Shown in pieces: positions 39,139-46,989 of a stretch of DNA of 60,574 nt; positions within the stretch are counted from its first letter, which is position 1, and each line of letters opens with the position of its first letter. The position numbers and the translations under genes are program-made. The notes beneath the pieces were generated by a model. That model searched no databases and was not told where the DNA came from. It was given only the letters and a program-made list of their open reading frames with translations. The stretch is from an uncultured cyanobacterium (GTDB lineage Bacteria > Cyanobacteriota > Vampirovibrionia > Vampirovibrionales > JAGQHJ01): the NCBI GenBank assembly GCA_937922745.1, contig CALAJO010000092.1, positions 1-60,574 on the forward strand. Reading direction: 5' to 3'.

Positions 39139-39219
39139 CGAAATAGCACTCTTGTCATACTAACAACTGAGGTGCCTTTTTTAAAAAAGCTCTTTGAGTA
39201 TAAGGAGTCTGAGATTTAT

Positions 39220-40650
39220 ATGCAGCGTGCTTTATCCGCCATTTTTAGTAGAGAGCCATTTAGTGCAAGCCGAAATTTTCTAATTACTGCCATTTTCTGG
39301 CTGGTCTTCGGTACGTCAATCGGTCTAATTGCGTCCATGCAGTTTACAGCGCCTGACGCGCTTGCGGGCGTTGCCCAGTTATCCTTCGGCCGTTTGCGGC
39401 CGGTGCATATCAATGCTGTTTTAATTGGCTGGCTCTCGATGGGTTATGCCGCTTGTATGTTTTACATTATCCCGGTTTTAGTGGGCCGTAAAGGCATCTG
39501 GAGCGAGCTGCTCGGCAATATCACCATGGTTGCCTGGAATGTGATGATGGTGGTCGGGATTTTTGGCTTGCTCAATGGCGATACCGAGGCGCGTGAATAT
39601 GCCGAGTTAGCCGGTACCGTCCAGATGGGTAGTACGTCCATTCAGATTCTGGATTGGATTGTTTTGGTTGCGCTGCTGCTGCTGGCGGTCAATGCCTGGA
39701 TGACGGTTATGACCGGGGCGGAAAAGAAATGGTACGTTTCAATCTGGTACTTCTTAGGCGCCCTGTTTTGGTTCCCCATTATTTATATTATCGGCAACCG
39801 GGCGTTTGTTCAGTTGGAAGGTTTGAATGACGCGATTACCGGTTGGTTTTATGGTCACAACATCTTGGGGATGTGGTTTACCGTCGGTGGTGTCGGTATT
39901 ATGTACTACCTGCTGCCCAAGTTTACAGGCAATCCGCTTTATAGCCACACGCTTTCCATGATTGGGTTTTGGACTATCGGCATGTTCTATGCCCCGACTG
40001 GGACGCACCATATTCTGCAGTCTCCGGTTCCGGAGTGGTTGAAATCCGTTGCGGTTATTTCCAGTGTCTTTCTTTTGGTTCCGGTACTAACCGTACTCAC
40101 CAACTTCTTTATGACGATGAAGGGTAAATGGCACACCGCTACCGAGCATATTCCGCTGCGTTTTGCGATTGCTGGCGGGATTGCTTACCTTTTAACCTGT
40201 ATCCAGGGCCCGTTCCAGGCAACCCGTTCGATTAACTGGTATCTGCACTTTTCCAACTGGGTTGTAGGTCACGCCCACTTGGCGTTGCTGGCGACCTTCT
40301 CCTTCTTTGTGTTTGCGGCCACCTATTACATGATTCCCAAGATGACGGGCCGCAAAATGTACAGCAAGCGCCTTGCCGTCTGGCACTTCTGGCTCACCCT
40401 TTATGGCTGGATCATCATGATGCTGTCTCTGACCATTGCGGGGCTGGTTCAGGCTGCCGGTTGGCACCACGGTATCCCAGTCGATCAGTGGGTTATTGAA
40501 CTGGAGCCTTACTGGATTATCCGCTCCATTTCCGGTGTGATGATTGTCCTGGGGCAGATTCTGTTTATGTTTAACGTGTATAAAACCGTATTCAGTCCCG
40601 AACAGTGTGAGGAGCTGCCACACTCTCCCACAGGGGTGGTTTATGTATAG
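39220..40650 (+). CDS. ccoN: cbb3-type cytochrome c oxidase subunit I, CcoN
   Basis: CcoN is the 12-helix catalytic subunit of the C-family heme-copper oxidase, which reduces O2 to water. The 476-aa product has the copper ligands in YGHNILG (His213) and THH (263-264), with the cross-linked Tyr of the C family six residues before the first His of that pair (MFYAPTGTHH). It also has the heme histidines of VVGHAHLALLA. PVHINAVLIGWLSMG near the N-terminus carries the low-spin heme His. Start ATG 39220 follows AAGGAG. It heads a one-strand cluster that runs to 47377. Direct fusion to CcoO, seen in some lineages, is absent. Confidence 0.95.
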   Translation: MQRALSAIFSREPFSASRNFLITAIFWLVFGTSIGLIASMQFTAPDALAGVAQLSFGRLRPVHINAVLIGWLSMGYAACMFYIIPVLVGRKGIWSELLGNITMVAWNVMMVVGIFGLLNGDTEAREYAELAGTVQMGSTSIQILDWIVLVALLLLAVNAWMTVMTGAEKKWYVSIWYFLGALFWFPIIYIIGNRAFVQLEGLNDAITGWFYGHNILGMWFTVGGVGIMYYLLPKFTGNPLYSHTLSMIGFWTIGMFYAPTGTHHILQSPVPEWLKSVAVISSVFLLVPVLTVLTNFFMTMKGKWHTATEHIPLRFAIAGGIAYLLTCIQGPFQATRSINWYLHFSNWVVGHAHLALLATFSFFVFAATYYMIPKMTGRKMYSKRLAVWHFWLTLYGWIIMMLSLTIAGLVQAAGWHHGIPVDQWVIELEPYWIIRSISGVMIVLGQILFMFNVYKTVFSPEQCEELPHSPTGVVYV

Positions 40651-40697: not shown

Positions 40698-41639
40698 ATG
40701 AGAATTAATTACTTTGTTGCCGGTGGTTTTGTTGTCCTCATCTTTTTGGTCATCATTTTTGTAACCACGGTCTTACCTGCAAGTACATTTAAGCCCACTG
40801 CAACCCCTGCGGCCCACAAGTACACACCAATGGAACTGGCAGGCCGCAATATTTACCGCCGAGAAGGTTGCTTCTACTGCCATACGCAGTTTGTTCGCTA
40901 CCAGGACCGGGAGTCCGGCGAAATGGTTTTAGCAGGCGACTACATGTACGAAACGCCCCACGTCCTGGGTACGGAAAGAACCGGCCCTGATCTCTCCAAC
41001 ATTGGCGGCAAGTACGCCGATGGCTGGCACCGGGCCCACCATGACAATCCTAGAAAAGTAAAACCCGGTTCCATTATGCCCAGTTACTCCTATTTAACGG
41101 AGAAAGAAAAAGAGCAGCTCATTGCGTATCTGCAAACCCTGGGTGCGGGTCGTAAAATGACGTCCTGGGTGGTTCCCCCGCAAGAATTGCAAGACGAGTA
41201 CGAGCATGTTAAAGCCTTTGTTAACGTGAATTCATCTGCGGCCGCTAACTCCGGTAAAGGTATCTTTATGCAGAACTGTGCGCAGTGCCACGGTATGACG
41301 GGCGAAGGAAACGGCCCGGTCAGTGCGACCATGATTAAGAAGCCGGCAAACTTTACCCGTCCTTTCTATACGCAATACTCTGATGCAATGTGGTATTACC
41401 GCGTCAAGGAAGGTGTCCCGGGAACCAGAATGCCTCGCTGGGGCAAAACACTAGGTCGTGAACAGATGCTTTACCTGGTTGCGTTCTTAAAGACGCTGCC
41501 GAAAGATACACAAACGGTTCAGGAGGAGATCACCTCCTTGAAACAATTGGATAACCCGGTTGATCTGGATGACAACTACAAATATGTCGACCAGGCCGCT
41601 GAAAGATATGGCGCAAGCAGAAATGAGGCATTTAAATAA
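40698..41639 (+). CDS. ccoO: CcoO fused to an extra cytochrome c domain (CcoO-P like)
   Basis: A 313-aa membrane cytochrome c. Residues 1-30 are the CcoO membrane anchor. The CcoO domain follows with NIYRREGCFYCHTQFVR (heme site C58-C61-H62), ERTGPDLSNIGGKYADGWH, and SIMPSYSYL containing the axial Met. A second c-type domain begins near residue 180 with CAQCHGMTGEGNGP (C194-C197-H198) and a late TRMPRWG giving its axial Met. Ordinary CcoO has one heme c. The added domain resembles one of the two heme domains normally found in CcoP. It follows ccoN by 47 bases and its stop overlaps the ccoS start (TAATG). Confidence 0.92.
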   Translation: MRINYFVAGGFVVLIFLVIIFVTTVLPASTFKPTATPAAHKYTPMELAGRNIYRREGCFYCHTQFVRYQDRESGEMVLAGDYMYETPHVLGTERTGPDLSNIGGKYADGWHRAHHDNPRKVKPGSIMPSYSYLTEKEKEQLIAYLQTLGAGRKMTSWVVPPQELQDEYEHVKAFVNVNSSAAANSGKGIFMQNCAQCHGMTGEGNGPVSATMIKKPANFTRPFYTQYSDAMWYYRVKEGVPGTRMPRWGKTLGREQMLYLVAFLKTLPKDTQTVQEEITSLKQLDNPVDLDDNYKYVDQAAERYGASRNEAFK

Positions 41640-42009: not shown

Positions 42010-42852
42010 ATGCAGAACAAGATGAACCGTTTTAAACCTCTTCTTCCTTCGGCCTTTATCCTAGGCCTGGTTTTCACCTTTTCACTCACCGCCTGTGTCT
42101 CTGAGCGCAATGTGACTCAGAAGGAATTGATTCAACGGCCTTTGCTCAATGCCGAACTCAATACGGAAGATTTTGCTTTCCCTTCCCGTCCGCCAAGATT
42201 GAGCAAGGGAAAAGTGATTTTCGAGCAGAATTGCAATACCTGTCACGCCGGTATTTCGTACGACAAAATTAAGGATGAGAAGCCGATTGACACGTACTTA
42301 ATGCTCACTCGAGGGGATAAAGGCCATCCCAAGTTCCCGAAGCTAACGCGTGACCAGCGTTGGGAAGCGCTTTTCTACGCCCGTCACTTGGCAGGGGAAA
42401 GTGATATCCAGAATAAGGAGATTGCCGCTATTTTCGGGGCTAATTGTGCAGTTTGTCACGGCTCTAAAGGTTTTGCCGATGGCCCGTTACATTCTGGCCA
42501 TGCCTCGGCTCACGAGTTGGGTATGGCTCCGGTGAAAGGCGCGTTTAACCCCCCGCCGGCGAACTTCCACAGTTATTACCGGATGTATAACCGAACCAAC
42601 GACATTTTGGTCAAGAATATCAAGGAAGGTCTCTATCCATCGGGCATGCCGGCCTGGGATGGTGTCTATGACAAGGATAAAAACGTCACATTTGATGACG
42701 CGCTGATTCTGGATCTCGTAAAATATATTCGCGGGTTTGCCATTGAAAACGATCTTTCTGCTGAAGAAGAGAGCAAACCTAATGCCGAACAAAAAGGCGG
42801 CGACAAGGAAATCAGTGCTTTGCCGAAGAACAGCGGCAAGATGGAGAACTAA
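42010..42852 (+). CDS. Diheme cytochrome c lipoprotein
   Basis: A 280-aa exported cytochrome. The signal peptide ends at FSLTACVSERN, a lipobox with Cys29. There are two heme sites, CNTCH (C75-C78-H79) and CAVCHGSKGFADGP (C146-C149-H150), with candidate axial Met residues in YPSGMPAWDG and earlier. The C-terminal 35 residues are hydrophilic. Its place between the oxidase and the Rieske gene suggests it shuttles electrons from the Rieske/cytochrome b part to CcoO, like a cytochrome c1/CcoP hybrid. It belongs to the class of cytochromes sometimes tied to alternative bc complexes. Confidence 0.9.
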   Translation: MQNKMNRFKPLLPSAFILGLVFTFSLTACVSERNVTQKELIQRPLLNAELNTEDFAFPSRPPRLSKGKVIFEQNCNTCHAGISYDKIKDEKPIDTYLMLTRGDKGHPKFPKLTRDQRWEALFYARHLAGESDIQNKEIAAIFGANCAVCHGSKGFADGPLHSGHASAHELGMAPVKGAFNPPPANFHSYYRMYNRTNDILVKNIKEGLYPSGMPAWDGVYDKDKNVTFDDALILDLVKYIRGFAIENDLSAEEESKPNAEQKGGDKEISALPKNSGKMEN

Positions 42853-42857
42853 TCACG

Positions 42858-43445
42858 ATGAATCGACGTACTTTTCTAAAATTCATATTGAGCTTGCCTC
42901 TTTTTGGCGCGTTGCTTTTGTCTGTTTCACCGTTATTCCGCTATCTCAAACCAACTGCCGGCGCATTTCCGGAAGGATTGGTTTCGAAGCCGGATAGCCC
43001 TGTTCGTGTTCGAAATATTACCTTTCCGCTATCTGCTTTTCCGCAGCCCTGGGTCGTGCAGGAATTTGTTTTCGAGCAAAAGAATCCGGAATACACTCGT
43101 GCAGGCGCCCAGATTAGCCGTATTCCGGGGTTTGCATTGAGGATTCCTGGCAAAGGTGCGGATGATTACCAATTTGTTGTATACAGCAGGATTTGCCCCC
43201 ATATGGGATGTATTTTCCGTTATGTGCCGGATCCAAACGAAGCGGCAACCGGATTCAACTACAGGCCGCCTGAAGGCACCCCCGTGTTTGCCTGCCCGTG
43301 CCACTTGAGTGTTTTCGATCCGCTTCAGGAAGGAAAAGTGGTAAGTGGGCCTGCACCGAGGCCACCGCGCTATTTCAATTTTGAAATTGATAAAGGTTCC
43401 CAAACCCTGGTTATATCTGATGTTGAGTCTGGGGGTATTGCTTAA
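42858..43445 (+). CDS. Rieske [2Fe-2S] protein
   Basis: A 195-aa Rieske subunit that takes electrons from quinol at the cytochrome b Qo site. It starts with NRRTFLKFILSLPLFGALLLS, a twin-Arg-like membrane anchor. The cluster ligands are in CPHMGC (C113, H115) and CPCHLSVFDP (C146, H149); the disulfide cysteines C118 and C148 are both kept, as in high-potential Rieske centres. A long insert separates the two motifs. It lies 5 bases after the diheme cytochrome and directly abuts the first cytochrome b, the usual petC-petB order. Confidence 0.94.
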   Translation: MNRRTFLKFILSLPLFGALLLSVSPLFRYLKPTAGAFPEGLVSKPDSPVRVRNITFPLSAFPQPWVVQEFVFEQKNPEYTRAGAQISRIPGFALRIPGKGADDYQFVVYSRICPHMGCIFRYVPDPNEAATGFNYRPPEGTPVFACPCHLSVFDPLQEGKVVSGPAPRPPRYFNFEIDKGSQTLVISDVESGGIA

Positions 43446-44876
43446 ATGTCTGCCACAATGATGACCCGCGCGACAGAGTCGATGAACAAGGCCGTCAAAT
43501 ATGTCACGGATCGTTTTGATAAGTTGGACGTCTTTGATGAAACCAAAACGGATTTGCAAGCGTCTTCTCCCTGGTACCAATTGGGAAGCCTGACCTATTT
43601 ATTCTGGATTATTACGGTTGTTACCGGGTTAACCCTGGTTTGTTTCTATATTCCCACTACTTTCCAAGCGTATGACTCCATTATTGCCATTCGTGAAAAC
43701 GTCATTTTGGCCATTATTCGAGGCATCCATAAATATGGTGGGGATGCCATCATTATTGCGGCAACCCTAAAGGTGTACCGGATGTGGTTCCGGGCCGAGT
43801 ACAAGAATAAAGGTGAATTCTCCTTTATTCTTGCAATGATCATCCTGGTTGCGGCAATGTATTCCGGCTTGACGGGTTATCTTCTCATTTGGAACCAGCG
43901 CGCGTTCTGGGCAACCAAGATTTTCGGGACATTCCCCACATACCTGGATATTCGCCCAGCCGTTTCAAACTGGTTCGTGCCTGAAATTACCGGTTTCATT
44001 ACGCAGACAATCGGCGATTTAACCAACCAGGGTAAGAATACCTCCCAGATTCTGCTTGGCGGAACCTCTATCGGCCAGGCAACCATGACGCGGTTCTATT
44101 CGCTGCACTTTGGCATTAGCTTAATTGCCCTGGTTATTTCGGAGTTGTATTTCTATAAAAATCGTTTCAAGCGCATTAACGTCAACCGTTGGGTTGTGTT
44201 AATGAGTATTGCTGTCCTTGCCTTTATCGCGGTTATATTACCTGCTGAAATGGGAAGTCGGGCTAACCCGGAGGTCACTCCGTTGCCGATTCTGTCCGAC
44301 TGGTACTTCCTGGCGCTTTACCAACTGTTAAAGTATATGGATCCCTATTGGGCAACGATCTGGACAGTCGGTATTCCCTTTATTACCATTGCTTTGGCTT
44401 TTCTTGACTTTGGCCCTGAGAAAGATCCCTGGAAGCGGCCGATCTTTACCATGGCTGCGATCATTGGATTTATTGATTTTATCGTTTTCTCGGTTTTGAT
44501 TATTCTGAATATTGCGGATATCAACCGCGATCCGCCGTGGTGGTATGCGCAGATGATTGTGATGATGACGATTGCCGAACTCTGGCACTTTGGTCTCTAT
44601 AAACAGATTAAAGTATGGCTATTCTGGGTCATCCCGAATTTGCTCCTGAGTGGTTGGTACTTCTTCTTGTTAGTTTGTCCCAAACCTCAGTTGCCAGATG
44701 CACTGACGTGGATTTACAGCAACAATCCGGCGGTTCATCCCCAAGGGTTTGATATTGCCGGGCATCCCTGGATTACAATGTGGTTTGTATTCTCATTAGC
44801 GATGACGTTACTGACATTTTTGCTAATGAAAATCGCCAACCCCGGGACACAACCTTCTGAGGTGAAGGCTGCATGA
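43446..44876 (+). CDS. Cytochrome b lacking both heme bH ligands
   Basis: A 476-aa cytochrome b with the b6 and subunit-IV parts in one chain. In the second helix the first heme His is present (GIHKYGGD, His95), but the partner 14 residues later is Lys109 (TLKVYRM). In the fourth helix the first His is present (SLHFGI, His221), but the position 14 later is Tyr235 (SELYFYK). By the bc1 rule, the first of each pair ligates bL and the second bH, so bL ligands remain and bH ligands are both gone. The Qo motif reads SDWYFLALYQLL in place of PEWY. The ends overlap the next gene as ATGA. A pseudo-enzyme is unlikely given the tight operon. Confidence 0.9.
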   Translation: MSATMMTRATESMNKAVKYVTDRFDKLDVFDETKTDLQASSPWYQLGSLTYLFWIITVVTGLTLVCFYIPTTFQAYDSIIAIRENVILAIIRGIHKYGGDAIIIAATLKVYRMWFRAEYKNKGEFSFILAMIILVAAMYSGLTGYLLIWNQRAFWATKIFGTFPTYLDIRPAVSNWFVPEITGFITQTIGDLTNQGKNTSQILLGGTSIGQATMTRFYSLHFGISLIALVISELYFYKNRFKRINVNRWVVLMSIAVLAFIAVILPAEMGSRANPEVTPLPILSDWYFLALYQLLKYMDPYWATIWTVGIPFITIALAFLDFGPEKDPWKRPIFTMAAIIGFIDFIVFSVLIILNIADINRDPPWWYAQMIVMMTIAELWHFGLYKQIKVWLFWVIPNLLLSGWYFFLLVCPKPQLPDALTWIYSNNPAVHPQGFDIAGHPWITMWFVFSLAMTLLTFLLMKIANPGTQPSEVKAA

Positions 44877-45142
44877 CAGGGCGCAGTTGGAGATGGTGGA
44901 TAACCTTTGTGTTTTCCACCTATACCCTTTCCGAAGTGTTTAAGGCTTCACGCCTTTTAACCTCTGGAGTTGTAACCCCGGGAATCGTTGCTTCCCTGAT
45001 TATATGGGGACTGTTGCTCATCGGTAGTTTTCTTGTCCTGGGTTACGATTCCTATGTCAAGGATAAAGCTGCCGGACGCGTTGTCCACCAAATCTGGATT
45101 TTTGAGAAATTCTACAAGTTTGCTCATCGGGAGAATTGTTAA
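44873..45142 (+). CDS. Small membrane protein of the respiratory cluster, 89 aa
   Basis: An 89-aa protein with two hydrophobic segments (about 8-24, and ASLIIWGLLLIGSFLVLGY near 40-58). A soluble end follows, with conserved-looking aromatics (HQIWIFEKFYKFAH). It starts inside the stop of the first cytochrome b (ATGA), which implies coupled translation and a stoichiometric subunit. I do not recognise a family. It could be a structural helix subunit standing in for PetL/PetG-type peptides. Confidence 0.7.
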   Translation: MTGRSWRWWITFVFSTYTLSEVFKASRLLTSGVVTPGIVASLIIWGLLLIGSFLVLGYDSYVKDKAAGRVVHQIWIFEKFYKFAHRENC

Positions 45143-45144
45143 AT

Positions 45145-45378
45145 ATGCCAATTAATCAGTTAATTCGATTATCCGGCGCCGCATTGATCTCGTTATTTGC
45201 GTTAATTGCCCTGTATCAAATGTTTACAGCCGAATCCAGGACGGCAACCGAGTTCACGGATTATTTTCAGTGGGCTCTGTATGCGGGTTTGATTTTTCTG
45301 GCTGTAGGTGCCGCGCTAACCTTGTTCGACAAGGATGACGATGTGCTGACCGATTATAAAGATGAAACCAGGAAATAG
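45145..45378 (+). CDS. Small membrane protein of the respiratory cluster, 77 aa
   Basis: A 77-aa protein with two predicted helices (LIRLSGAALISLFALIALY and FQWALYAGLIFLAVGAALTLF) and an acidic C-terminus (DKDDDVLTDYKDE). ATG 45145 follows GGGAGA; a TTG at 45136 would overlap the previous gene. No family is recognised. It sits between the two cytochrome b genes. Confidence 0.7.
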   Translation: MPINQLIRLSGAALISLFALIALYQMFTAESRTATEFTDYFQWALYAGLIFLAVGAALTLFDKDDDVLTDYKDETRK

Positions 45379-45391
45379 GAGATAAACGAAC

Positions 45392-46546
45392 GTGAGCCAG
45401 GCGACGACGAATGTATATGCGGGCATCATTGCTCAGTTTCAAAGGCTAACGCTGTTTATCGAGCGTATCCTCAACAGTACCTTTTCCCAGAAGTATAATC
45501 CCTTTTATTATCACGGGGCGCTCCCGAACTTCTTTCTTTGGGTACTCTTTATTTCGGGCTTGCTTTTGTTTGCGTATTACAATCCTACCTTGGAAGGTGC
45601 ATACCCATCCTTGGAGTATATGACGAAGCAAATTCCATCAGGTGCGTTGTTTAGAGCCCTTCACCGCTATGCTGCCGATGGGATGATGATCTTTGTCTTG
45701 CTGCACTTTTTCCGGGTCTGGTTTACCGATCGCTATCGGGAGTATCGTATTTTACCCTGGATTACGGGTGTTATTCTGATTACGGTTTTATACCTTGCCG
45801 GTTTAACTGGTTATATGCTGATTTGGGATTCCGAATCGGTTGCTTTGACTTACATGACGGTAAACTTCCTCAACAGTATTCCTGGTATCGGGTCGTCTCT
45901 CGCTTCACTGCTGATTGGCGGAGACATTGTCACCGACTATACATTGACGCGTTACTTATTCCTCCACCTCGGGATTCCGGCGTCTATGCTGTTTCTGCTG
46001 TGGTGGCACTATCTCCGGATTACCCGCCCAGTAACTAATGCTCCGCTGGTTCTGAACCTGATGCTGTTTGGTGGTCTGCTGGTGGCGTGTGGTTTGTGGC
46101 CCGTTGGTATTGGCGAGGCACCGAACCTGGCAACGCCAAGTGCCAGCATTGAAGTGGACTGGCTGTATATGTTGCCGCATGGGATGTTAGCCAATGGCGC
46201 GAGCCCCTTCCTGGCGTGGGTTGTCTTGCTGGGTATCCCGGTTGCGATGCTGCTGCTGCCCTACTTGCAGAAAAAGCAATTCCGCGGCCAGTTTGCTCAG
46301 GTTGTCAATGAGAATTGTACCGGCTGTTCGCTGTGTTATCATGATTGCCCGTACGAAGCCATTGAGATGATGGACAGGGACGATGATACCCGCTTTAAGC
46401 GGATAGCGGTGGTTGATCCGGGGCGTTGCGCCAACTGCGGTTTGTGTGTTGGGGCATGTGCCTTCAAGGCAATCGAAATCCCGCGGATGAATACCGAACG
46501 AGTCTTTAAGGAAATTCAAGTTGCATTAGGGAGCGCACAATCGTGA
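45392..46546 (+). CDS. Cytochrome b fused to a C-terminal 2[4Fe-4S] ferredoxin
   Basis: A 384-aa fusion. Residues 1-300 form a cytochrome b with all four heme ligands: His91 and His105 (ALHRYAADGMMIFVLLHFFR), His192 and His206 (LHLGIPASMLFLLWWHYLR). The Qo-like motif is degenerate (VDWLYMLPHGM). Residues 305-384 form a bacterial-type ferredoxin with two full motifs, CTGCSLCYHDCP (C309, C312, C315, C319) and CANCGLCVGACA (C346, C349, C352, C356). The GTG start abuts the preceding gene by 13 bases. The ferredoxin should lie on the cytoplasmic side near heme bH, offering a path between heme bH and a soluble electron partner. The 3' end overlaps the MvhD gene as GTGA. Confidence 0.93.
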   Translation: MSQATTNVYAGIIAQFQRLTLFIERILNSTFSQKYNPFYYHGALPNFFLWVLFISGLLLFAYYNPTLEGAYPSLEYMTKQIPSGALFRALHRYAADGMMIFVLLHFFRVWFTDRYREYRILPWITGVILITVLYLAGLTGYMLIWDSESVALTYMTVNFLNSIPGIGSSLASLLIGGDIVTDYTLTRYLFLHLGIPASMLFLLWWHYLRITRPVTNAPLVLNLMLFGGLLVACGLWPVGIGEAPNLATPSASIEVDWLYMLPHGMLANGASPFLAWVVLLGIPVAMLLLPYLQKKQFRGQFAQVVNENCTGCSLCYHDCPYEAIEMMDRDDDTRFKRIAVVDPGRCANCGLCVGACAFKAIEIPRMNTERVFKEIQVALGSAQS

Positions 46547-46989
46547 ATCAGCGAAGAAAATTAAAAGTCGTTGCGCTTGTTTGCGAGCGGAGTGTCGACT
46601 TCAAAGACAAGCTGGACAACGCCCATTATATGAGCGAGTGTCCCGATGTGAATGTGATCCAGTTGCCGTGTAGTGGGCAAATTCAACCGGCGATGATTGA
46701 GGCTGCCTTAAAAGGCGGTGCGGATGGCATTATTACTACGGGCTGCCGTATCGGCGATTGCCACTATCGAGAAGGGAACAAGTTCCTTAGAGCCCGCATT
46801 CTGGGAGAGCGCCAGCCTAAGCTTAGGGCCAGCGTTGATCGCAAGCGGCTTCAGGCCTACTGGTTATCGGCGCTGGAATATCACCGGTTTAAGGAAATGG
46901 CGGGCGAATTTGTCGAGTTCCTGTCTGGCTACCAGCCTGAGACCCCACAGAAGCCTGAAAAGAAAGCTCCCTCAAAAGCCGCCGAGTAG
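46543..46989 (+). CDS. MvhD/FlpD-type [2Fe-2S] subunit
   Basis: A 148-aa protein of the methyl-viologen hydrogenase delta (FlpD) family. Visible motifs are VIQLPCSGQIQPAMIEAALKGGADGI, TTGCRIGDCHYREGN and a late YWLSALEYHRFKEM. In methanogens and sulfate reducers this module passes electrons between a dehydrogenase and HdrA/Qmo proteins. The usual N-terminal C-x-x-C segment is changed: an early Cys in LVCERSV and one in SECPD remain. The last 20 residues are Lys/Pro-rich. Its GTG start overlaps the ferredoxin-cytochrome b stop. No HdrA is in the window. It could be the docking point for a soluble flavoprotein. Confidence 0.88.
   Translation: MNQRRKLKVVALVCERSVDFKDKLDNAHYMSECPDVNVIQLPCSGQIQPAMIEAALKGGADGIITTGCRIGDCHYREGNKFLRARILGERQPKLRASVDRKRLQAYWLSALEYHRFKEMAGEFVEFLSGYQPETPQKPEKKAPSKAAE

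Follow-up and report, generated by a model that had tools for sequence, protein, structure and literature searches.

Reciprocal losses in two adjacent cytochromes b of Vampirovibrionia suggest an asymmetric Rieske/cytochrome b complex linked to a cbb3-type oxidase

Two cytochromes b encoded next to a Rieske protein in the bacterial class Vampirovibrionia have undergone reciprocal losses throughout the sequences read, the first (b1) being without the heme bH ligands and carrying the Qo motif SDWY in 78/78 cases, and the second (b2) having four ligand histidines and being without the Qo tyrosine in 73/73. Judged from their sequences, b1 looks Qo+/bL+/bH- and b2 looks Qo-/bL+/bH+. In our view this pattern is best explained (probability of about 0.6) by an asymmetric complex of the Rieske protein and the two cytochromes b, coupled to a cbb3-type oxidase, in which electrons have to pass from b1 to b2; a missing heme bH in b1, a b1-b2 heterodimer, the electron path and its final acceptor are what we infer under this explanation.

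Results

Heme-ligand positions of the first cytochrome b

The features discussed below are listed in Table 1, with coordinates in the window, that is, the whole stretch of 60,574 nucleotides that was analysed (contig CALAJO010000092.1 of assembly GCA_937922745.1). The b1 reading frame encodes 476 amino acids and matches the Pfam families of both the N-terminal and the C-terminal cytochrome b domain. The initial annotation had read the ligand positions of helices B and D as His95...Lys109 and His221...Tyr235, with the bL ligands present and the bH ligands lost. This reading holds for the chain of this genome, and its pattern recurs in all 78 b1 sequences covering these positions, with His at 95 and 221, Arg or Lys at 109 and Tyr at 235. 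The b1 set comprised 80 sequences, 78 of which span all the positions checked (some being cut by a contig end elsewhere) and two of which are shorter fragments; left out of it were L009 and L010, which share their contigs with L063 and L064, and L076 (genome G297), a non-b1 cytochrome b equal in length and score to L054.

Table 1. Features of the gene cluster, with positions in the window
Feature	Position	Strand	Basis or conservation
CcoN-like, cbb3-type oxidase subunit I	39172..40650	+	PF00115; TIGR00780 match below cut-off
CcoO-like subunit, second cytochrome c domain	40698..41639	+	PF02433
Diheme cytochrome c	42010..42852	+	two CxxCH
Rieske iron-sulfur protein	42858..43445	+	PF00355
b1, cytochrome b having heme bL but no bH ligands, Qo motif present	43446..44876	+	ORF, Pfam, alignments
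His95 of b1, retained at heme bL ligand position of helix B	43728..43730	+	His 80/80
Lys109 of b1, at heme bH ligand position, helix B	43770..43772	+	R 67, K 12, gap 1 of 80; His 0/79
Phe127 of b1, where canonical rows and b2 have Trp, helix C	43824..43826	+	F/I/V/L in 78/78 b1; W in 73/73 b2 and 12/12 canonical
Ala130 of b1, at helix-C glycine	43833..43835	+	G in 28/78 b1 vs 73/73 b2 and 12/12 canonical
His221 of b1, retained at heme bL ligand position of helix D	44106..44108	+	His 78/78
Tyr235 of b1, at heme bH ligand position, helix D	44148..44150	+	Tyr 78/78
SDWY, PEWY-type Qo motif of b1	44295..44306	+	78/78
P8, small protein between b1 and b2	44873..45142	+	52 aligned sequences
P9, small protein	45136..45378	+	matched only in two nearest genomes (L009 = L063, L010 = L064)
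b2, cytochrome b with four His, degenerate Qo motif, C-terminal 2x[4Fe-4S] ferredoxin	45392..46546	+	
VDWL, Qo-motif remnant of b2	46154..46165	+	Tyr 0/73 at last place
2x[4Fe-4S] ferredoxin domain of b2	46289..46474	+	Pfam Fer4 families
FlpD/MvhD-like iron-sulfur protein	46543..46989	+	PF02662, E 1.2e-23

In a HMMER alignment with the solved cytochrome b6 (1q90_B), Lys109 falls beneath the helix-B histidine and Tyr235 beneath the helix-D histidine that hold heme bH, and His95 and His221 align with the remaining two histidines, which hold bL. The spacing of 14 residues in helix D of b1 equals that between His198 (bL) and His212 (bH) of Rhodobacter capsulatus (PMC4807273). Histidine occupies at least half of 57 b1 rows in columns 33, 95, 194, 221 and 360 only, so that a shifted pair in helices B and D is absent; the alignment with b6 and homologues that had been proposed as a check found the pair neither restored nor shifted in any of the 78 b1, members of a group that differ pairwise at up to 63% of aligned positions (50 loci). 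AlphaFold models of b1 and b2, built from 11-row alignments, had pLDDT values of 47 and 43, too low for use.

The heme pocket of b1 is altered on one side

Two positions of helix C that are presumably on the bH side, 127 and 130 in b1, have also changed, the Trp being lost in 78/78 b1 and the Gly in 50/78. Their bL-side counterparts are invariant in b1 (Arg92 in 80/80, Gly144 in 78/78 and Gly61 in 57/57). Two further residues that we take to belong to the bH side, helix-A Gly47 (57/57) and Arg112 (79/79 of those with a letter), are invariant in b1 as well, which weighs against this reading; the latter position is Arg in just 3 of the 12 canonical rows. Glu233, two residues ahead of Tyr235, is found in 78/78 b1; Glu233 and Tyr235 (window 44142-44150) and the basic residue at 109 are thus all conserved, and these three might link helix B with helix D across a vacated bH site.

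The data support the view that the loss of the bH ligands is patterned, under constraint and centred on the bH side, as the initial annotation had argued when it spoke of a patterned change: the replacing residues are conserved, and the pattern extends over six families. That b1 is decaying and catalytically lost, as its missing ligands might suggest, is extremely improbable, given that SDWY and the bL ligands are invariant in 78/78, that 73 of 236 gapless columns are invariant (57 sequences, positions 41-350) and that the residues replacing the ligands are themselves conserved; random decay was discarded on the same conservation. The b1 of family f43 (e.g. L098-L118; large genomes) has about 100-200 extra residues, for a total of about 600-690 amino acids.

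Alternatively, the bH site of b1 might still hold a second heme through unusual ligands, namely Tyr235 with Lys or Arg109 opposite, e.g. as a five-coordinate tyrosinate heme. The strict retention of Tyr235 and of a basic residue at 109 would fit such a heme, as would that of Gly47 and Arg112, and the H212K variant of R. capsulatus keeps a low-spin heme, Lys being a working bH ligand in that engineered bc1 (PMC4807273). However, 67 of 79 b1 carry Arg rather than Lys at 109, the helix-C changes affect the same pocket, and natural Met/Lys heme ligation in integral membrane proteins was unreported to the knowledge of the authors of that study (PMC4807273). Given Arg at 109 in most b1 and the changes at two pocket positions, a tyrosinate or Lys-ligated bH heme is less likely than an empty site, and we consider it unlikely.

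The second cytochrome b keeps four ligands and a remnant of the Qo motif

The b2 sequence is readable in 73 of the 80 loci, the contig ending in or before b2 in the other seven. Its ligands in this genome are His91, His105, His192 and His206, and the four histidines are present in 73/73, in agreement with the earlier statement that the neighbouring cytochrome b keeps all four; a bis-His bL site and a bis-His bH site in one chain are therefore found in b2 and in 0/78 b1. In the remnant of the Qo motif, the first place is hydrophobic in 72 sequences and Thr in one. Asp is still present in 72/73 and often also Trp (55/73), which weighs against the proposal, and the Qo site of b2 is therefore only putatively dead. 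The degeneration of this motif, a point absent from the initial annotation, makes b1 and b2 complementary and thereby strengthens the idea of transfer between them. An origin of the Qo loss of b2 within this class is less likely, as a homologue in Defluviimonas has a similar remnant.

The ferredoxin domain of b2 has eight cysteines, of which seven are invariant in 55/55 sequences and C319 is found in 54/55, and it should lie on the cytoplasmic side. The cysteine of helix A that serves heme cn in b6 is absent from both chains, being Gln45 in b1 and Tyr40 in b2 (Tyr40 in 55/55).

A conserved cluster of oxidase, Rieske/cytochrome b and iron-sulfur genes

The order CcoN, CcoO, cytochrome c, Rieske, b1, b2, FlpD is constant in all b1 loci fetched, within the limits of each stretch. 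No cluster protein reached the cut-off of the CcoP model. One Rieske gene was found per cluster, and its two Cys-His motifs are present, the cluster-binding residues C113, H115, C118, C146, C148 and H149 being invariant in 58/58. The diheme cytochrome c of HKST-UBA04 (L010:5559-6347, on the same contig as L064) has lost its first CxxCH, which reads CPGYP, as the sole exception among 56. The small protein P8 was recognised in 52 sequences and missed in four loci; a search for conserved His or Cys in the 52 aligned sequences found none, which rules out P8 as a donor of heme ligands in trans.

The FlpD-like protein has four cysteines in 53/53 sequences and is the sole PF02662 match in the genome. 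Together with the ferredoxin of b2 it forms an arrangement of the HdrA2/MvhD type, a 2x[4Fe-4S] ferredoxin followed by FlpD, and the HdrA2 model NF040770 matches accordingly, its positions 570-641 in b2 and 648-770 in FlpD. The scores were far below the whole-protein cut-off, as is expected because the two segments cover the C-terminal part of HdrA2 only; the HdrA flavin domain was absent from the nine cluster proteins scanned.

This match to the C-terminal part of HdrA2 also agrees with a role in which b2 and FlpD would mainly take in electrons from the cytoplasm and pass them from ferredoxin via heme bH of b2 into the quinone pool, b1 contributing only a side branch. NuoF had no match in the draft genome (92% complete) and the 49-kDa subunit of complex I is present, making electron entry from donors other than NADH plausible. 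Taken alone, however, such an input leaves the bH loss of b1 unexplained, and FlpD is single-copy, with no partner identified. We regard input as the main role as a doubtful but serious possibility, one that is compatible with a b1-b2 dimer and whose odds overlap with those of the asymmetric complex.

No further PF13631 cytochrome b was found in this genome (G000, the same 92% complete draft). Vampirovibrio chlorellavorus (G304) has just two cytochrome b matches, b1 and b2, and b2 is hence the only other cytochrome b found in these two genomes.

Distribution within the class

In a sample of 382 genomes of the class, probably Vampirovibrionia (formerly Melainabacteria), 95 matched a b1 profile at a threshold of 1e-10, 78 of them below 1e-100 and two others as contig-end fragments (G294 and G376). 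b1 is present in six families (f1, f3, f42, f43, f44 and f46) and is not class-wide: among the matches listed, f2 had none, and f41, f45 and some f3 had weaker ones only. Within the order, 18/18 genomes matched the b1 query at E 1e-10, 13 of them, this one included, below 1e-150; the remaining matches are the contig-end fragment of G294 and those of four f41 genomes, which are weaker and of which three were read and have all four histidines. Several order genomes (L052, L054, L056-L062) carry a canonical cytochrome b with four histidines and KPEWY, besides or instead of the split pair; most of these canonical loci have a Rieske gene of their own, none being detected in L060.

With b1 as the sole query, a search across genomes of bacteria and archaea that reaches close relatives only returned 10 loci, assigned to Vampirovibrionales (3), Vampirovibrio (4, V. 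chlorellavorus NCIMB 11383 among them), Cyanobacteria bacterium (2) and an unnamed organism (1). In a sample of 386 genomes of the phylum, at least 10, including this one, had a match to the whole b2 profile, all belonging to the same class among the matches listed; the other matches listed were weaker and, where their extent is given, covered the cytochrome b part only. Among plasmids, a match covering 80% of the query was found in 0 of 44 records for b1 and in 1 of 70 for b2.

Origin of the two chains

Trees built on the N-terminal domain from part of the sequences read (51 and 41 rows) placed b1 in one clade and b2 in another, with full support. Each clade spans the sampled families, which group broadly alike in both, the placement of f44 differing. 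A recent duplication giving rise to b1 and b2 was ruled out by these separate clades and their long stems. Long branches meet in these trees, as the tool warned, which bears on whether b1 or b2 is nearer to canonical cytochrome b. The distances of b1 and b2 are correlated (r 0.94, 50 loci); as all pairs of the seven cluster proteins gave 0.89-0.97, this correlation is not specific and reflects shared inheritance only.

A protein encoded on plasmid NZ_CP156080.1 of Defluviimonas sp. SAOS-178_SWC (L077:8968-10548) groups with b2 on a long branch. It resembles b2 plus FlpD in having four histidines, a Qo remnant (LDWF), a 2x[4Fe-4S] domain and a FlpD-like part, and differs from them in being a single fused protein whose gene adjoins that of a heme-copper subunit I, with no Rieske gene in the stretch fetched. 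Genes for heme o synthase and SCO also lie nearby, and the fusion possibly supplies electrons to a nitric oxide or oxygen reductase. With a b2-like protein, ferredoxin and FlpD found together in a stretch that lacks a Rieske gene, b2 may have arisen otherwise than as a partner of b1. From the placement of this fusion and the domains listed for RME88945.1, b2 and FlpD look like an older module that would have been joined later to a Rieske-b1 unit.

The same observations lend themselves to an explanation in which b1 and b2 sit in separate complexes, b1 as a half enzyme with a Qo site only and b2-FlpD as an independent ferredoxin-quinone oxidoreductase. The Defluviimonas fusion of b2, ferredoxin and FlpD agrees with it, as does RME88945.1, for which Table A3 of PMC8756737 gives cytochrome b6, DMSOR_beta-like and FlpD domains. 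Against it, a b1 homodimer would be without an evident acceptor for the bL electron, and b1 and b2 occur together in 73/73 loci with a readable b2. We therefore think separate complexes improbable.

Discussion

Proposed electron path

In the asymmetric complex that we favour, quinol would be oxidised at the Qo site of b1, and b2 would carry out no quinol oxidation. The first electron would pass through the Rieske protein and the diheme cytochrome c to the oxidase, and the second would travel from heme bL of b1 across the dimer to bL of b2 and, through bH of that chain, reach the cytoplasmic side. The electron on bL of b1 would have to leave sideways because that chain would have no bH. On the cytoplasmic side, b2 might reduce either quinone or the ferredoxin/FlpD module. 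Quinone as the acceptor at b2 would give a Q cycle with one Qo and one Qi site; an exit through ferredoxin and FlpD would amount to quinol-based bifurcation, of which cytoplasmic input is the reverse option.

A more far-reaching form of this proposal would see the cluster as a natural complex III, common in one bacterial class, that is an obligate heterodimer, in which the removal of bH from b1 forces every low-potential electron over the bL-bL bridge into a b2 wired to ferredoxin and FlpD, with quinol bifurcating between O2 and a low-potential cytoplasmic carrier and the short circuit of the ordinary Q cycle being prevented. We offer it tentatively and hold it to be rather unlikely in this full form.

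Relation to known complexes

The Rieske protein, the cytochrome b fold, the PEWY-type Qo motif of b1 and the cytochrome c subunit are features shared with bc1 and b6f complexes. Unlike these, the cluster has two distinct cytochromes b, one without bH ligands and the other without an intact Qo motif, a ferredoxin on b2 with FlpD adjoining, and the heme cn cysteine in neither chain. A close parallel is a laboratory one: in a fused R. capsulatus dimer combining a G158W half (Qo-dead) with a H212N half (bH-dead), bL-bL transfer was catalytically relevant and took place in milliseconds, and cofactor distances in bc1 exclude any inter-monomer transfer except that from one heme bL to the other, across an edge-to-edge gap of 14 A (PMC4330944). 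There, as proposed here, one half is Qo-dead and the other bH-dead, and the bL-bL bridge is the sole link between the Qo site and the cytoplasmic side (PMC4330944). In contrast to those fusions, which are constructs without ferredoxin, the complex considered here would be a natural one formed by two diverged chains, and is known from sequence.

Complexes of anammox bacteria also join a Rieske/cytochrome b complex to a cytoplasmic redox module, and bifurcation to a low-potential acceptor has been proposed for them; the module there is an NAD(P) oxidoreductase rather than ferredoxin-FlpD, and the portion of that account available to us describes no division of bL and bH over two cytochromes b (PMC12954380). 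They appear to represent the nearest published proposal of quinol-based bifurcation that we have seen.

A 2017 paper in Science reportedly dealt with aerobic respiration in Melainabacteria. Oxygen reductases near petB and petC in this group have been termed a complex III/IV combination (PMC6349859), possibly the same locus as the one described here; heme ligands, a second cytochrome b and FlpD are not mentioned in the available part of that article. The V. chlorellavorus genome paper, in the part available, lists Complexes I to IV and a cbb3 oxidase and contains nothing on heme ligands (PMC4451040). Nor was anything on a natural bH-less cytochrome b present in the parts of PMC4683180 and PMC7618691 available, and the literature searched, most subscription journals lying outside it and an earlier mention being possible, held no report of one. 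Within this literature, the split b1/b2 pair would constitute a new variant of complex III.

Conclusions

The physiological meaning of inter-monomer electron transfer in complex III is still to be settled according to PMC4330944, a study whose own tests used engineered asymmetric dimers. A large part of one bacterial class seems to rely on the path from b1 to b2, and the question of cross-transfer therefore becomes directly testable in a natural enzyme. If the proposed path is correct, it would illustrate the rewiring of a quinol-oxidising complex to a ferredoxin on the cytoplasmic side, and would show that a cytochrome b can shed half of its cofactors and yet stay under selection.
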